Counted from the first letter of the stretch, positions 5,355 through 40,344 are shown. The stretch: DNA of 64,000 bases from an uncultured Opitutaceae bacterium (GCA_903916755.1 CAIWXW010000201.1:1-64000), one strand, 5' to 3'. Notes: generated by a model from the sequence alone, not told the origin. Made by a program: numbers and translations.

Positions 5355-8300
5355 TCAGCGCCTGGTCTCGGAGACGAGGGTGACCGGGCCCAACAGGCCG
5401 GAGTCGGCGAGCGGCACCGGCCGGGGACTGAAAGCGCGCACCGGCTCGGAGGTCAGCACCCGCCTTTCGGGCGGCTCCGATTTGTCGCCAATCTGCCGGT
5501 TGGTCCATTCGTTGGTCACCGCGACCACGAGGTCGTTCGCGCCCGGATGAAGCACGTCGGTCACGTCGACCCGATAAGGCGCCTTCCAGAGCAGATCGAG
5601 GACGCGCCCGTTCAGCGTGACCTGGACCACGTCCCGCGCAACGCCGAGATCGAGGATGATCCGGCCGCCGCGCCCGGCCAAATCCGCCGGCGCCTCGAGC
5701 GTCTTCGTGTAGGTGGCGGTGCCGGAGAAATACTTCACCCCGGGATCCGGGTTCGCGATCCACGATTGCAGCGCCGGCAAGGTGAGGTGCGCCGGCGCGC
5801 CCCAGCGCGGGGGAAAGCTGACGTCCCAGGGTCCCTCGACCGTGGCCAGCACCGTATCCTCGGTCCGCGGCACGACGCGCACCGGCGCGGATGACGGATG
5901 ACGGAAGACGACAAAGACCGCCTCGCGCTCCGCCAGCTGAAGGGGGACCACAGTCTGGCCGGCGGCGCTGGCGTAACCCGCCGGCTCGATGGCGCCGGTG
6001 TCGGGATGCCACAGTTCCGCCTCGCGGCCGGCGACCCGGAAACGGGCCTCAAGGTCCTGGGCCCGGTCGCTGCGGTTCGCGACGAAGTAGATCTCGGCGT
6101 CCGCGGTCCGGCGGTGGATCCAGGCATAATCCGAATCGAGCGCGCGGCTGGCCTCGAAATCCCGCGGCACGCCGGCCGCCTGGAGGACATCCGTGAGCGG
6201 CAGGCCCCAGAAGACCAGGCCCTTCCCGTAGTAACGCTTGGTGCGCATCACGCCGTCGAGGTCGCCCCAGATGTCATTGGCCAGCGCCCGCACCTCGTCG
6301 TCCGCGGCGGGATAGCCCGTCAGGCTCGGCGACTGCCCCGGCCGCGGGCCCACGACCGTCACGCCGCCGGCCACCAGTTCGCGGATCTTGCGGAGGACGG
6401 GCGGCGTCATCCGGTCCAGCGGCGGCAGCACCAGGACGCGGTAGCTCATCCCGTCCGGGAGCAGCAGCCGGCCGTCCGCACTCACGCTCATCCGGTGGAG
6501 GAGGATGTCGGCGTTGATGCAGTCGTAGTCGTAGCCTTCGGGCGGCGTGGGCTGGAGGCCGGCGCCCCAGAAGGGCTGGCTCGAGGGGATGCCCTCGGGT
6601 AGAAGATAGGCGAGGTCCGCCACGAAAAGCCCCTGCTGCAGCAGGTAGGAATTGCGGGCGAGGTAGGTCATATAGGGCTTTGCCTGCTCCGCCCAGGTGA
6701 TGTTCCGGTTGATGTGCGTGCCGACCATCGTGTTGCCGGGCTTGGTATCCAGCGGTTGCTCCGCGGACGTGTGGAAAATGAAGCGATTCACCCCCTGGGC
6801 GAACCAGTAGTCGCCGATCTTCTTCAGGGTGTACGGTGCCTCGTAGCCCCCGCCGGTGAACGATTCGGTGCCGACCAGCTTTTTGCCGTAGGCGTGCGCA
6901 GCCGAGGCCGCGCCCCGCACGTCGACATAATACTGCAGCTCCGGGTGCAGCGCATGGACCCAGAACTCGCCCATCGGGATCTCCACCTTGCTCTTGTTGA
7001 GCAGCGTGTCCTCCATGATGTCCATCGAGACGCCGGAGGCCTCGGCGTAGAGGCCAATCCCGCGCTGGCGGAGGAGCTCCGCCATCGTGCCGTAGTGATT
7101 TTCGGCGAACATGTCGGCCAGGGTCCGGCGGAAGTCCCAGAGAAACCGGTCGCTGAGGTCCGCGTTGCCGACGATCCGGCCGGCCAGCACCGGCAGATAG
7201 GGCACCGGGTCATAGCCCCGCCGCCGGTGAAATTCGGCGATCATCTCATCGGTCCAATTCTGGTTCTCCGCTTCCCAGCTGTCCATGGTCATGTACCGCA
7301 AGCTCTTGCCAAAGAGCGGTCCAAGCTGCCGGGCGATCGGGTCCACATAGCCGTGGAAGTAGCTTTCGACGTCCTTGCGGCTCAGCTTGTCGACCTCATA
7401 CCCGGAACCGGTCGGGGGGGCGGGCCGGTTCTTGGCCCCGGTGAGCGAATACCCCATCCGCAGGATGGTCCAGTTTCCGGCCGGCACGGCCCAGTCGAGG
7501 CTGCCATCCGGCGCCATCCTGGCCGTCAGGTCGATCACGTCCGCGGCGGCGATCGCGGACGCGGCCGGGACCGCCGGGGTCCGGGACGACTCGTACTCAT
7601 AGAGAAAGTTAAAGCCCGCCTTTTCCTGCCAGTGGTTCACCCGCGCGCCCGTGTGGACGATGAACTCAGCCAGCGCGTACTGCGCTGCCGGCAGCGTGCG
7701 GTCCTGGCTCATCACCACGGCGGGCGTCGCCGCGGCCCGGGTCATCTCGATCCGGAAAAACCGCGCGGTCGTCAGCGGAAAGGCATAGGTGCGGATGGTG
7801 GCGGCGCGGTACATGACCGGTCCGGGCAGCTCGACCAGGGTCCGGAAGGCCACGCCGTCGTCGCTCACGGCGATCCGCCCGACGGGCACGCCCCGGCCGG
7901 GCGCCACCAGTGTGATGGCCCGGGCCGCGACCGGCTGGTCGAATTCGTACTGCACCCAGGCGGCGCCGCCGCCGGCCGGCGCGGGCACGTCCAGGGACGT
8001 GTTTAGATTGCCGTCCATGAGGACGGCGCCATCGATCGGACCGGCGTCGGAGGTGACCCGGGGATGCAGCTCGGCCATGGTCTTCTCCTCCGCCGGCGTG
8101 CGGTAGGCCACCACCGCGCTGTCACCATAGTAAGTGGGATCGGGCGCCCCGCCCAGGAGGGCGCGGCCGCCGGCCGCCAGGTTGCCGAAGGGTCCGTTGC
8201 TCGAGGGCGGCTGGGCCAGCCTGCCGTGGAAGTCCTGCGGGCCGCTCAGGGCTGTCTCGCTCCAGACCAGCTTCTTCATCGCCTGCGCGGGCTTGACCCA

Positions 8301-34335: not shown

Positions 34336-34620
34336 GTGCCCACCTCCTGCCGTCTCTCGGTCAAAACGATCCCGGGTGCCTCGCGCAATGCGATCGAGGG
34401 CTGGATCGGCGAAGAACTCAAAGTGAAGGTGACCGCCCCCGCCGTGGACGGACGGGCCAATGCGGCGCTCTGTGAGTTCCTCGCCGATCAATTGGGAGTT
34501 CCGCGCCGGACGCTGATCCTCCTGCGGGGAGAGAAATCACGGCACAAGGTGATCGGGATCGAGCACGTCACCCCGGAAGATCTTCGGTGTAAGATCGAGG
34601 ACCTCATCGCCCATCGCTAA
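34336..34620 (+). CDS. DUF167/YggU family protein (UPF0235)
   Basis: This 94-residue protein starts at GTG. VKTIPGASRNAIEGW and VTAPAVDGRANAALCEFLADQLGV and ILLRGEKSRHKVIGI are the conserved blocks of the YggU/DUF167 fold. The family's function is unknown. The region between it and the divergent NfeD gene is short (about 130 bases) and should hold both promoters. Confidence 0.9.
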   Translation: MPTSCRLSVKTIPGASRNAIEGWIGEELKVKVTAPAVDGRANAALCEFLADQLGVPRRTLILLRGEKSRHKVIGIEHVTPEDLRCKIEDLIAHR

Positions 34621-34636
34621 TCCGGGTTCCGTCGGG

Positions 34637-34930
34637 TTAACCCAGGGAAGGCGGTAATTCCCGGATGAAGGCCCAGGAGATCTCCGCGAGTTCGCCCGTA
34701 TCATACCGGATCCTAAACCCTATCCTGGAGTCGTCCACGGCCACCTCGATCGGAATGGCTCGATCCGAAATTTCAGCGGCCTGCCTGATCGTCCTATGGG
34801 GTTCCAGGAAGGAAAGGCTGTCTTCAAATTCCACGCTGAACGCATCCTCCCACGAAAGATAACTCGCGTGCGTGATTTCGACCATGCGGGCGGTCCCGAA
34901 CGGCTTCTTCAGCTGAACTCCCGTTTTCAT
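34637..34930 (-). CDS. Small conserved-type hypothetical protein, second gene of a coupled pair
   Basis: The protein has 97 residues from the ATG at 34930, chosen because this ATG overlaps the TGA of the 46-residue ORF (ATGA). A longer start at 34990 adds a lysine/arginine-rich 20-residue extension. The core reads VEITHASYLSWEDAFSVEF and IGFRIRYDTGELAEISWAF. It may be related to DUF2442-type small proteins, which often follow DUF4160 genes, but I cannot confirm the family. It is 16 bases from the convergent YggU-family stop. Confidence 0.6.
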   Translation of the reverse strand: MKTGVQLKKPFGTARMVEITHASYLSWEDAFSVEFEDSLSFLEPHRTIRQAAEISDRAIPIEVAVDDSRIGFRIRYDTGELAEISWAFIRELPPSLG

Positions 34931-35067
34931 CGTTTTCTTTCCCGTTTTATCTCCCGAACGACTGCGACGAGTTTTCGGCTTGGAATCCATCCTTCGAGGC
35001 TGCGAAACGTCACGAGATTGATGCGGCCGAGCTTTTTGCCCCCGGCGCTTCGTACGTGAACGTGCAT
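34927..35067 (-). CDS. 46-residue ORF, DUF4160-like fragment
   Basis: The frame reads MHVHVRSAGGKKLGRINLVT and continues to EIKRERKR. HVHV near the start followed by GG and a basic helical end resembles DUF4160, although it is shorter than the usual about 80 residues. TAGGAG, which includes the argD stop codon, serves as a well-placed Shine-Dalgarno site about 12 bases upstream. Its TGA overlaps the next start (ATGA). Both signs suggest it is translated. It was probably acquired or inherited as a unit with its partner gene. Confidence 0.5.
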   Translation of the reverse strand: MHVHVRSAGGKKLGRINLVTFRSLEGWIPSRKLVAVVREIKRERKR

Positions 35068-35082
35068 GGCGGAGTCAATCTC

Positions 35083-36297
35083 CTATGCCTTCCGGGCCAA
35101 GACACCCCGGAAGATCTCCACCGACCGGGCCAGCTCGTCCGCCGACGCATTCAGCGGCGGCAGCAGCCGCAGCACATTCACGCCCGCCCCGGCCACCAGC
35201 AGCCCATTCTCCCGCAGGGCAACCGCATAGGGCGCGGAATCGACCAGCAGCTGCACGCCGACCAGGAAGCCCCGGCCCCGCACGCCGCCCACCTGCTTGG
35301 GAAATTCCGTCACGAGGCCCTGCAGCGCCTGGATCCAGGGCTTGCTGGCGCTGGTCACGTGCGCGAGCAGTTTCTCCCGCTCGATCACGTCGAGCGTCGC
35401 CAGCGCCGCCGCGCAGGCGAGCGGGGTCCCGCCAAAGGTCGTCCCATGCGAGCCCGGCTGGAAGAGCTCGGCCGCCCGCTCCCCCACCCAGATGGCGCCG
35501 ATCGGAAAGCCGCCGCCCAGGCCCTTGGCCATGGCGATCGCGTCCGGCCGGATGCCCGCCTGCTCAAAGGCGTAGAAGGTGCCGGTCCGGCCGATGCCGC
35601 ACTGCACCTCGTCGACCATCAGGAGCAGGTTCTTTTGGTCGCAGAGCCGCCGCAGCCCGACCAGGAACTCGGGCGTGCAGGGATTGATCCCGCTCTCGCC
35701 CTGGATCGACTCGACGAAGATCGCCGCGGTGTCGTCGTCGACCAGGTCGGCGAAGCTGCCGAGGTCGTTGAGCCGTCCGAAGGAAAAGCCCGGAACCAGC
35801 GGCCGGAAGCCGCGCTGGATTTTCTCCTGCGGGGTCGCGCTCATCCCGCCGAACATCCGGCCGTGAAACGCCTTCTCCGCGCAGATGACCTTGTAGCACT
35901 TGGCCTCCTCCCCGACTTTGCGCATCCCGTGCAGCCGCGCGAGCTTGAGCAGGCCCTCGTCCGCCTCGGCGCCGCTGTTGCAGAAGAACACCCGGCCCGG
36001 CCCGGCATAGCCGACCAGCCGCCGGGCCAGCTCACCCTGGTTCGGATTCCGGAAGAGATTGCTGGTGTGGATCAGCTCGGCCGCCTGCTGCTGCACCGCC
36101 CGCACCCAATGGGGATGGCAGTGGCCGATCGCGTTGACCGCGATGCCGGAGGTGAAGTCGAGGTAGGCGTTGCCCTGGTCGTCCCACACCTGCGTCCCCT
36201 GGCCGCGGACGATCGTCAGCGGCGCGCGGGCGTAGTTCTTCATCACGTGCGCGTCGTAGAGCTCCGCCGCGCTGCTGCGGATCAGGGAAGGGTTCAT
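35083..36297 (-). CDS. argD: Acetylornithine aminotransferase
   Basis: The protein has 404 residues. [20 protein letters not shown] is the subclass III aminotransferase block, [20 protein letters not shown] carries the PLP-stacking aspartate, and [16 protein letters not shown] contains the lysine that forms the Schiff base. The enzyme makes N-acetylornithine. Its ATG overlaps the argB stop by 4 bases, so translation is coupled. The short DUF4160-like ORF follows its stop directly. Confidence 0.95.
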
Positions 36298-37298: not shown

Positions 37299-38615
37299 GT
37301 GCCCGACGCCGCCCTCTCCTTTCCCAATCGGGAAGCCCACCGTGCCTGGCTGGCCAGCCAGGGCCGGCTGCCCGCCGGCTTCCGTGTCGGCCGAACTGAG
37401 TTCGCCTTCACGCCGCGCGAGGCGCCCAAGCCGGCGAAAATGACGCTCACCCTGATCGCGCTCGACCGGCCCTCGCCGGACTTCGGCGCCGTCTTCACGC
37501 GCAATGCCCTCCCGGGAGCCCCCGTCCTGGTCGGCCGCCGGCGGCTGCAGGAAGGGGCCCTGGGCGCCATCATCGTCAACAACAAGATCTCGAATGTCTG
37601 CGCGCCGGGCGGCGAGGCCGCCGCGGAGCAGATCAGCGCCGAAACCGCCCGATTGCTGGGCTTCGCGCCCAGCCAGGTGCTGCCCAGCTCCACCGGCGTC
37701 ATCGGCTGGGGCCTGCCGGTCGAAGCCATGCTCGCAGCGCTGCCCCAGGCGGTCGCCGCGCTGGCCGGCGGCTCGATCCTGCCCGCGGCCGAGGGGATCG
37801 TGACCACGGACCTCTATCCCAAGATCCGCCGCGCCCAGGTCGGAGGCGGCTCGATCGTCGGGATCGCCAAGGGCGCCGGCATGATCGAGCCGAATCTGGC
37901 GACCATGCTCGTCTACCTCCTGACCGACTTGGCGGTGCCACGCGCCGAGCTGCGGGCGATGCTGGCCCGCGCCGCCGACGCCACCTTCAATGCCATCAGC
38001 ATCGACAGCGACACCAGCACCTCGGACACGGTCGCCATCGTTTCCTCCGGCCTCGTCCCCTGCCCCGACCAGGCGGCGTTCGCCCGGGGCCTGGAGGAGG
38101 TCTGCGCCGCCCTGGCCGAGGATGTCGTCCGCAATGGCGAGGGGGTCCGCCATGTCCTGCGCGTGACCGTGCGCGGGGCCACCGACGCCACGTTCGCCCG
38201 GGCCCTGGGCAAGGCCGTGGTCAACGCCCCGCTCTTCAAGTGCGCGGTCGCGGGCAACGACCCGAACGTGGGACGGCTGGTCCAGGCGATCGGCAAGTAT
38301 GTCGGCGCCCAGCCGAAGGTCGCCGATCTCTCGCGCCTGAGGCTGCGGCTGGGCGGCATCGAAATCTTCGCGCAGGGCATCTTCCAGCTGAACCCGGACA
38401 AGGAAAAGGCGCTGGCCGATCACCTGAAGGGGGCCGAGCTCTACGCCAGCGCCCCGCCCAGGGAAGGCGTCTTCGCGCCGCCGATCGACTTCCCCCCGCA
38501 CAGCCGCTGCGTCGAGATCGAGATCGATCTGGGCTCCGGGCCGGCCGGCGCGGTCGTTTTTGGCGGCGACCTGACCCACGAATACGTCAGCGAAAACGCC
38601 GACTACCGCAGCTAA
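37299..38615 (+). CDS. argJ: Bifunctional ornithine acetyltransferase/N-acetylglutamate synthase
   Basis: The protein has 438 residues starting at GTG. GIAKGAGMIEPNLATMLVYL contains the Ala-Thr self-cleavage site that creates the alpha and beta chains. VLPSSTGVIGW, the SIDSDTSTSDT segment and PNVGRLVQAIGKYV are further ArgJ signatures. It recycles the acetyl group from acetylornithine to glutamate. Whether it is mono- or bifunctional cannot be decided by eye. Its 3' end overlaps the accessory cassette gene by 4 bases. Confidence 0.94.
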   Translation: MPDAALSFPNREAHRAWLASQGRLPAGFRVGRTEFAFTPREAPKPAKMTLTLIALDRPSPDFGAVFTRNALPGAPVLVGRRRLQEGALGAIIVNNKISNVCAPGGEAAAEQISAETARLLGFAPSQVLPSSTGVIGWGLPVEAMLAALPQAVAALAGGSILPAAEGIVTTDLYPKIRRAQVGGGSIVGIAKGAGMIEPNLATMLVYLLTDLAVPRAELRAMLARAADATFNAISIDSDTSTSDTVAIVSSGLVPCPDQAAFARGLEEVCAALAEDVVRNGEGVRHVLRVTVRGATDATFARALGKAVVNAPLFKCAVAGNDPNVGRLVQAIGKYVGAQPKVADLSRLRLRLGGIEIFAQGIFQLNPDKEKALADHLKGAELYASAPPREGVFAPPIDFPPHSRCVEIEIDLGSGPAGAVVFGGDLTHEYVSENADYRS

Positions 38616-39007
38616 GCGGATATTGAATCCCGAACCTCGTGATAGGCGAGATTTCGAATGATCGTGTTACTGAGGCCTCCTGAAATGTTTTCCGGAATTA
38701 TTCCGTGAGCTCCATTGGCTGGGACCGGATCAGCGAGAACAGTTAGGCTGACTGGAGTTTGATGCGCTCGTCCTAATTCTTCCAATCGGCCCACCCCAAT
38801 TTCTCCGAGGCGCTCGAGTCGCCGGCCAGGAAGTTTCTGCACCGTGGCCGCGAGCACCCGCCACTGTTTTGCCAAAGGGAAGATCGCCAGCCGACTGATT
38901 GAAGTATTCATGCCTCTGAAAAGGCTGGGCGAAACTCGACCACTCGCGGCATCGTATTTGTCAGAACAAATGGCCCTCAACACCTGCTCTCGCGATTCCA
39001 ACCGCAT
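38612..39007 (-). CDS. Hypothetical protein, third gene of TIGR04255 cassette
   Basis: The protein has 131 residues from the ATG at 39007; a TTG at 39019 would overlap the previous stop and add 4 residues. It reads SGRVSPSLFRGMNTSISRLA near residue 30, then a basic helix-rich middle (KLPGRRLERLGEIGVGRLEEL) and ends YHEVRDSISA. No family is recognised. It follows the 162-residue gene with 8 bases between stop and ATG. DNA composition is AT-richer than the surroundings. The stop overlaps the argJ stop by 4 bases. Confidence 0.65.
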   Translation of the reverse strand: MRLESREQVLRAICSDKYDAASGRVSPSLFRGMNTSISRLAIFPLAKQWRVLAATVQKLPGRRLERLGEIGVGRLEELGRAHQTPVSLTVLADPVPANGAHGIIPENISGGLSNTIIRNLAYHEVRDSISA

Positions 39008-39015
39008 ATCGGTTC

Positions 39016-39504
39016 TCAAAAAACAGCTTGGCTGCAGCGCGCGGCAAACTCTCCAAGAGCCTCTGGAGGGATCACACCCTCTTCACCCATCGATTCTATG
39101 AAATAGCGGGCTCCATCAGGCATTATGGTGGCGTCGATCGTGCGCCCTTCGCGATCCTCCCAAGTGAGTTCAAAGTAACCTTCATCCGTCAAAAAAATAC
39201 TGGGAGGATGTTGGGCTGTGACAAAATGGGCTGCTTGCAGGAATTTTTGGAAATTCCTGTAAGTTCCCCACCCCACCGCATGGCTGTGTTCACCGGTCCA
39301 ACCATCGGGCCATCGGCTAAAATCGTGGAAGCGCTGATACCCGACGTCCCCAAGTTTAGCATAAACGAGACCAGGAAGCGCCGGGGGCACGTCGGTATCC
39401 ATCCACGAAGTGACACTTGGCACCATCCGGCACATCACCGGACGAGGAGCCATCCATTGCCCATGTGCGACCGTGGGCTTCGGCATATCAGCGACGGGAG
39501 GCAT
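39016..39504 (-). CDS. Hypothetical protein, second gene of TIGR04255 cassette
   Basis: The protein has 162 residues (ATG at 39504; a second ATG at 39486). Visible features are SRWPDGWTGEHSHAVGWGTY, followed by FQKFLQAAHF and a beta-rich core PSIFLTDEGYFELTWEDREG then IDATIMPDGARYF. This W-DG plus FL plus PDG pattern looks like a small soluble protein family often seen in operon with TIGR04255 genes, but this is from memory and no search was possible. No signal or TM segment. Eight bases separate it from the TIGR04255 stop. Confidence 0.65.
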   Translation of the reverse strand: MPPVADMPKPTVAHGQWMAPRPVMCRMVPSVTSWMDTDVPPALPGLVYAKLGDVGYQRFHDFSRWPDGWTGEHSHAVGWGTYRNFQKFLQAAHFVTAQHPPSIFLTDEGYFELTWEDREGRTIDATIMPDGARYFIESMGEEGVIPPEALGEFAARCSQAVF

Positions 39505-39512
39505 AAAACGAA

Positions 39513-40262
39513 TTAATATTCAGGTTTTAGTGTAGCAAGGAAGCTCGGCCTTACCAGCTCACGAAAGAACATTTCCTTTTGGACCTCATGGGCTTGGTCA
39601 AAAAGCACAACCGCTTGCTCCCAAAATAATTGCGAGTCCGAACCAAAACCCAGATCAACATCAAGCAGACATCCCTGTTTTGGTCCTGTTGGTGAAGCCA
39701 GCACTGAATTATTCGAAATTTGGACCCGACAAGCATGTCCTCTGCGTTCAAGTTCACTCACGATCTGGAGCGGCCGCGCCACTTCGCTCTTACCCCCGAT
39801 CAACAGGTCGACCTGCAGGCACTCTTGCACAGGATTTGTAAAAAAATCCATGAACCGGAGACCCATGCGTTCTGGAACTTTCACCAATTTTAACGGCCGA
39901 ATTTGGGCGAGCACCCAAGTAAGCATCTCTCGGTACGCGGACCATCCAGGATATTCAGTGCCATTCATGCCGAGAAAAAGGCATCGCGGGCCGACATGCA
40001 GCGAAAGCTGTTCTCCGTTCATCACCACCGTGGGCGCATATCGCAATTCAGGCATCGTCGCCCGGGCTGCATCCGGGATTTGTGCATGAGGCAGATCGGT
40101 TTGCTTCGGAAATCGTTCACGCACAGCGCTGTAAATCAGACCAGGAACAACCGTCGGACTTTGGTCGGTTTGAAAACGGACCTCTGTGATCGCGTTGACG
40201 ATCGAACACGGCGTGATGCGCGTGGGCAGACGCAAATCAACAGATTTAGGCGAATCGGGCAT
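39513..40262 (-). CDS. TIGR04255 family protein
   Basis: The protein has 249 residues from the ATG at 40262 (MPDSPKSVDLRLP). The N-terminal NAITEVRFQTDQSPTVVPGL and the later YPGWSAYREMLTWVL and C-terminal LFDQAHEVQKEMFFRELV fit the TIGR04255 family, whose members are about 250 residues and of unknown function. Genes of this family are sporadically distributed, which suits an accessory or defence-like role (inferred). It is the first gene of a three-gene, AT-richer unit inserted between argJ and the polyamine genes. A 76-base gap separates it from the decarboxylase stop. Confidence 0.75.
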   Translation of the reverse strand: MPDSPKSVDLRLPTRITPCSIVNAITEVRFQTDQSPTVVPGLIYSAVRERFPKQTDLPHAQIPDAARATMPELRYAPTVVMNGEQLSLHVGPRCLFLGMNGTEYPGWSAYREMLTWVLAQIRPLKLVKVPERMGLRFMDFFTNPVQECLQVDLLIGGKSEVARPLQIVSELERRGHACRVQISNNSVLASPTGPKQGCLLDVDLGFGSDSQLFWEQAVVLFDQAHEVQKEMFFRELVRPSFLATLKPEY

Positions 40263-40344
40263 TACCAAGGACTACTAACAACTAATCCCTGCCGTTTTTA
40301 AGCCAAGCTGGTTGTTTTCCTAAAAAAGCGCTATCAGGCCCCGC

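Follow-up and report, generated by a model that had tools for sequence, protein, structure and literature searches.

An acquired three-gene cassette led by a TIGR04255 protein in an Opitutaceae genome: a probable toxin-antitoxin-like conflict module

What is a 1.7-kb cassette of three co-directional genes doing between argJ and a decarboxylase gene in an uncultured Opitutaceae bacterium, and how did it get there? The cassette lies on the minus strand at positions 38612–40262 of the window, which here means the whole 64,000-nucleotide stretch of DNA that was analyzed. Its products, T1, S2, and S3 in gene order, had been given in a preliminary description as proteins of 249, 162, and 131 residues encoded on the minus strand with 8-base gaps. 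Coordinates, strands, lengths, and gaps all agree with those found here, both intergenic gaps being 8 bp. The 131 residues of S3 are counted from an ATG, and an alternative in-frame TTG start is present four codons upstream.

Table 1 Features of the cassette and its boundaries (window positions)
Feature	Position	Strand	Description
T1	39513–40262	minus	249 aa; TIGR04255 / phrog_5464; constant first gene of the module
S2	39016–39504	minus	162 aa; middle protein, antitoxin- or adaptor-like by position
S3	38612–39007	minus	131 aa; third protein, proposed effector
Upstream block	40263–40318	minus	Putative promoter-like sequence (AGCTTGGCTT...), common to both other Opitutaceae copies
Right-hand insertion junction	38612–38615		S3 stop codon overlapping the argJ (+ strand) stop codon
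Approximate left-hand insertion junction	40319–40344		Just 3′ of the PLP-dependent decarboxylase gene; placed from the empty sites of congeners

The cassette differs from its surroundings in composition. At 0.532, its GC content is below the mean of 0.678 for 1650-bp stretches of the window (z = −4.25), and no other stretch of this length is lower. GC3 is 0.51, 0.54, and 0.52 for the cassette genes, compared with 0.94 for argB, 0.92 for argJ, 0.93 for the decarboxylase gene, and 0.95 for the dehydrogenase gene. A second, smaller GC dip (0.575) is found in the flank at 34500–35099.

Each of the 13 genomes from the genus of the window has the decarboxylase gene. In the three congeners whose locus reaches argJ (L105–L107), argJ and the decarboxylase gene are direct convergent neighbors with no cassette, their stop codons being only 5–23 bp apart. 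Copies of all three genes, in the same order but among entirely different neighbors, are present in L001 and L002 from two other Opitutaceae, with protein identities to T1, S2, and S3 of 76, 59, and 70% for L001 and 75, 56, and 64% for L002. Between these two copies, DNA identity of ~80% starts 56 bp before the T1 ATG, runs as far as the last S3 codons, and ends abruptly outside. Because homology is confined to the upstream block and the three genes, the moving unit is that block plus the genes. An AGC.GCTTGGCTT-like sequence is present upstream of the cassette in the window too.

Foreign composition, empty sites in congeners, and unrelated sites elsewhere support horizontal acquisition, so both the AT-richness and the acquired origin put forward in the preliminary description are borne out. 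That description had named three outcomes that would speak against it, and none was observed: the three genes do co-occur elsewhere, their GC and GC3 differ from the flanks, and the three congeners compared lack them at this place. The moving unit, as defined by comparing L001 and L002, contains no transposase or integrase, and neither a tRNA gene nor convincing terminal repeats were found at the insertion in the window. At other loci, a tRNA-Val gene (L017, 1280–1351) precedes a T1-S2-S3 cassette by ~100 bp, and a tRNA-Arg gene precedes a T1-HEPN module by ~430 bp (L008).

T1 had been assigned to TIGR04255, and it is indeed a full-length member. It matches positions 2–251 of the 252-position NCBIfam profile with 70.6 bits (E = 1.7e-19), where the curated cut-off is 30 bits. 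It also matches phrog_5464 (PHROG 5464; E = 2.5e-24), and no Pfam family at E ≤ 1. TIGR04255 bears the NCBIfam subfamily label ‘sporadTIGR04255’ and is a family without described function. It is named in no paper of the open-access literature searched; papers outside that literature may exist.

The AlphaFold2 model of T1 (pLDDT 94.2) can be read, from the order of its elements, as two similar halves, each with a beta-sheet plus a long helix. The best Foldseek matches are an AdoMetDC prozyme (E = 1e-5, TM 0.31) and TBP (E = 3e-4), and VIA-align gives Z scores of at most 8.3, to guanidino kinases. Such matches are to be expected among common alpha/beta arrangements and are therefore not taken as a sign of function, and as T1 is without a clear structural relative, its role is read only from its position in the module. 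Conserved charged and aromatic residues of T1 could form a binding or active site. SecB was considered as an identity for T1 and received no support from sequence: hhalign against Escherichia coli SecB gives 0.5% probability, and the SecB model PF02556 has no match in the genome. The comparison of folds speaks neither for nor against a remote kinship with SecB.

What follows T1 was compared among its places in a class sample of genomes, which number 30, of which 27 are classifiable. At all 27, a small middle gene comes next, followed by a third gene unless the contig ends. The third gene is S3-like at 20 of them, including one apparently broken copy (L022). At the others, it encodes a PIN domain twice (L021 and L144; Pfam E = 2.8e-11 and 6e-11), a HEPN domain once (L008; Pfam E = 5e-4, just under the cut-off), DUF7689 once (L127; E = 8.6e-43), and a Cys-Asp motif protein twice (L143, and L125, where the middle gene is of helix-turn-helix type). 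At L124, where the middle gene is again of helix-turn-helix type, the contig breaks off within the locus. On viral contigs, T1 is two genes upstream of a Cys-Asp protein, with the motif SN(S/T)CD, in 44 of 46 loci, many of these contigs being near-copies and one of the two loci without T1 being cut by a contig end.

In the broken copy (L022, 2716–3476), S3 apparently stops after ~58 aa and a REP-associated-transposase-like gene follows, so that the effector is apparently inactivated while T1 and S2 remain. A YafO-like toxin suspected at another locus (L032) received no support from Pfam, NCBIfam, or the PDB.

How the partners are exchanged was read from a tree of 68 T1 proteins inferred by maximum likelihood. 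It requires 12 changes of partner, where the least possible number is 5 and the shuffled mean is 29, and the PIN clade falls within a clade with 99% support whose other members are mostly of Cys-Asp type. Deep branches of the tree are weak. Thus, the downstream pairs are mostly inherited with T1 and sometimes swapped. The fixed place of TIGR04255 before exchangeable toxin-like pairs is new, and T1 more generally leads, as the unvarying gene, a pair that differs between copies in a widespread and apparently undescribed kind of module.

S2 and S3 themselves match nothing in Pfam or NCBIfam at E ≤ 1, in line with the earlier remark that the third gene is unrecognised. A recognised toxin or antitoxin domain is absent from both proteins of the window and occurs only in those cousin modules whose third gene is of another kind. 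Searches of PDB sequences with profiles of T1, S2, S3, and the Cys-Asp protein returned nothing significant. S2 consists of a variable N-terminal part of ~60 aa and a conserved C-terminal core (GW ... PS-x-F-x-TD-x-G-x-x-EL-x-W), and its profile comparison with the S2 of other modules gives 96% probability (E = 4.7e-9). The two S3 subtypes match each other with 91% probability (E = 9.5e-7). Both comparisons support homology of the two subtypes, but they are not fully independent, because the members were picked with joint profiles. The S3 alignment has conserved residues E7, R11, S36-x-x-R39, and H101, which are all present in the window copy and are candidates for catalysis. The predicted structure of S3 is unusable (pLDDT 38), because too few usable sequences were available.

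T1 and S3 are statistically linked. Among 384 genomes of the class sample, T1 is present in 25, S3 in 21, and both in 20, where 1.4 would be expected (hypergeometric p ~1e-27, ignoring phylogeny); thus T1 accompanies S3 in 20 of the 21 S3 genomes. Among 289 genomes of a phylum sample, T1 is present in 13, the S3 profile in 12, and both in 10, where 0.5 would be expected (p ~2e-14, again ignoring phylogeny). The sampled genomes are all from one phylum, and the sequences behind the S3 profile came from T1 modules of two subtypes. In shared genomes, T1, S2, and S3 are directly consecutive, with the exception of one genome (G532) whose T1 and S3 matches are on different contigs.

Two genomes (L098 and L099) have the S2-S3 pair without T1, which suggests that S2 and S3 form a unit of their own. 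The N-terminal part of S2 differs in both, a feature that may mark dependence on T1. Plasmid searches with S2 and S3 yielded no relatives, and scanning viral sequences with S3 or with the T1 of the window added none.

T1 modules are also carried by temperate phages, at accessory positions. In Pseudomonas phage VW-6S, the module comes directly after the CI repressor gene and near the integrase gene; in Sulfurimonas phage SNW-1, it is near the CII gene; and in the Peduoviridae phage Dobby of Pseudomonas, a module of the Cys-Asp type is located between the integrase and portal genes. Others are found in prophages and one on a small Phocaeicola (Bacteroidota) plasmid, while the majority of the bacterial copies found belong to large chromosomal contigs. 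P2-like phages have a known defence hotspot, the old/tin locus, on the portal side of their cos region (PMC9122126). The Dobby module resembles it in adjoining the portal gene, but its other neighbor is the integrase gene instead of gpA, and its type is Cys-Asp and not S2 plus S3.

Two S2-S3-type cassettes, one chromosomal (L013) and the other on a viral contig (L042), have the same gene directly behind them, at 258–569 and 5681–7783, respectively. Its product, named by resemblance, combines a UvrD-like helicase with a RelE-like N-terminus, in which the two copies share 81% identity over 104 aa.

Taken as a whole, we consider it probable that the cassette, compact and acquired, is a three-part conflict module of toxin-antitoxin-like type in which S3 is the effector, S2 its partner, and T1 a constant controlling component. 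Since the PIN and HEPN cousins have a known toxin type as the third gene, S3 would by analogy be the effector and S2 its antitoxin-like partner. Small, adjacent, co-directional genes in fixed order, as in type II toxin-antitoxin systems, are found in all copies. PIN (VapC-like) and HEPN toxins occur in such systems, and the third genes at L021, L144, and L008 encode these domains, although the window's S2 and S3 are neither PIN nor HEPN nor of another named family, and an extra gene is present upstream. The conflict or toxin-antitoxin type proposed in the preliminary description is therefore favored by association, as T1 relatives precede PIN and HEPN genes with a small partner and occupy accessory phage positions, and not by any domain of the window's own S2 and S3.

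We conceived a mechanism on this basis. S3 would be most likely a growth-inhibiting enzyme, with the Ser-x-x-Arg and His residues as a candidate active site. S2 would use its conserved C-terminal core to keep S3 inactive and offer its variable N-terminal arm to T1, which would control the S2-S3 pair as a shared regulator or sensor. For example, T1 might bind the S2 arm and stabilize S2 until a signal of infection or stress pulls T1 away. In this scheme, T1 would act on the middle protein, and the presumed trigger is phage.

The closest known layout is that of toxin-antitoxin-chaperone (TAC) systems, such as HigBA1-SecB-TA of Mycobacterium tuberculosis, in which one type of chaperone is combined with HigBA, HicAB, or MqsRA pairs (PMC5105189); CmdTAC (PMC11618068) is another example. 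Common to these systems and the cassette are three genes side by side, a third component that stays the same while the toxin-antitoxin pairs are unrelated, and a middle protein with a poorly conserved arm. By analogy with the SecB-like chaperones of TAC, binding and stabilization of the middle protein is the likeliest role for T1. There are two differences, however. First, the constant component here is T1, which is not SecB by sequence. Second, the variable arm of S2 is N-terminal, while the TAC extension is the C-terminal ChAD. For the first reason, we do not class the module as TAC; what it shares with TAC is its layout and proposed logic.

A more far-reaching version of the preferred reading takes TIGR04255 as a new, universal, non-SecB third component, chaperone-like or sensor-like, of three-part anti-phage systems into which different pairs are plugged, and S3 as a new toxin family. 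The S2-S3, PIN, HEPN, DUF7689, and Cys-Asp pairs would then all depend on T1. We hold this version tentatively, as possible but short of probable.

Strict anti-phage defence is a narrower form of the preferred reading, modeled on CmdC, CmdA, and CmdT. In CmdTAC, CmdC lets go of the toxin on meeting a phage capsid protein (PMC11618068). Correspondingly, T1 would sense a phage product and release S2, and S3 would shut the cell down in abortive infection. The module positions in VW-6S, Dobby, and SNW-1, the CmdTAC-like layout with its capsid-sensing chaperone, and the two cassettes directly followed by the RelE-like/UvrD-like helicase gene point in this direction. Against it, PADLOC families are no commoner in the flanks of ten cassettes than in controls from the same contigs (62 vs 62 proteins), with few matches at E ≤ 1e-10 in both sets, a small sample, and a rough choice of open reading frames. 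PADLOC also has no strong match to T1, S2, or S3. Its only matches are weak ones between the S2 core and the C-terminal part of PDC-M32A (E = 0.0015 for the window and 0.0025 for L016). The PADLOC candidate PDC-M32 is matched over only ~60 residues, with no match to T1 or S3, and the S2 match is no evidence of membership. Given both sides, a purely defensive role is a real contender that we stop short of favoring.

Rather unlikely, in our judgment, is that the cassette is an addiction module only, stabilizing itself or its prophage or plasmid with no defence role. The sporadic distribution of T1 (25 of 384 genomes), the compact mobile unit without other cargo, and the copies on a small Bacteroidota plasmid and in prophages would fit, but the bacterial copies are mostly on large chromosomal contigs.

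Taken alone, the adjacency of the genes could also reflect an enzyme or regulator of three subunits with no toxin among them, a metabolic or regulatory complex, the PIN and HEPN neighbors of T1 relatives then being coincidental. Conserved gene order, the absence of a recognised toxin domain from S2 and S3, and the conserved charged and aromatic residues of T1, a possible binding or active site, are consistent with such a complex. However, the pair behind T1 is swapped for unrelated pairs including PIN and HEPN ones, S2 and S3 are found without T1, and the sporadic, acquired distribution is unlike that of a core enzyme, all of which makes this explanation improbable. Finally, there is next to no chance that these are native AT-rich genes of the lineage conserved at the site, a view for which no supporting point was found, with GC3 about half that of the neighbors, unrelated sites in other Opitutaceae, and empty sites that refute it unless all three congeners lost the cassette precisely.

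If the preferred reading is true, a family filed as sporadic and of unknown function becomes the common handle of three-part conflict systems in bacteria, prophages, and a plasmid, and the two unnamed families S2 and S3 are flagged as antitoxin- and toxin-like partners. The toxin-antitoxin-chaperone layout would also exist with an unrelated third protein. It would further give a simple rule for finding effectors, which is to look two genes downstream of TIGR04255.

Two minor observations concern the Dobby locus (MK034952, L025). The T1 reading frame there spans 1090–1854, but the deposited annotation starts at 1483, leaving half of the gene unannotated. The same sequence contains, at 2187–2786, a member of an unnamed family of ~200-aa proteins (A12) with invariant QGD, SN-x-CD, and KLS-x-H-x-x-R motifs. 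In Pseudomonas prophages, this family, to which the 46 viral loci above belong, provides TIGR04255 with another effector-like partner.
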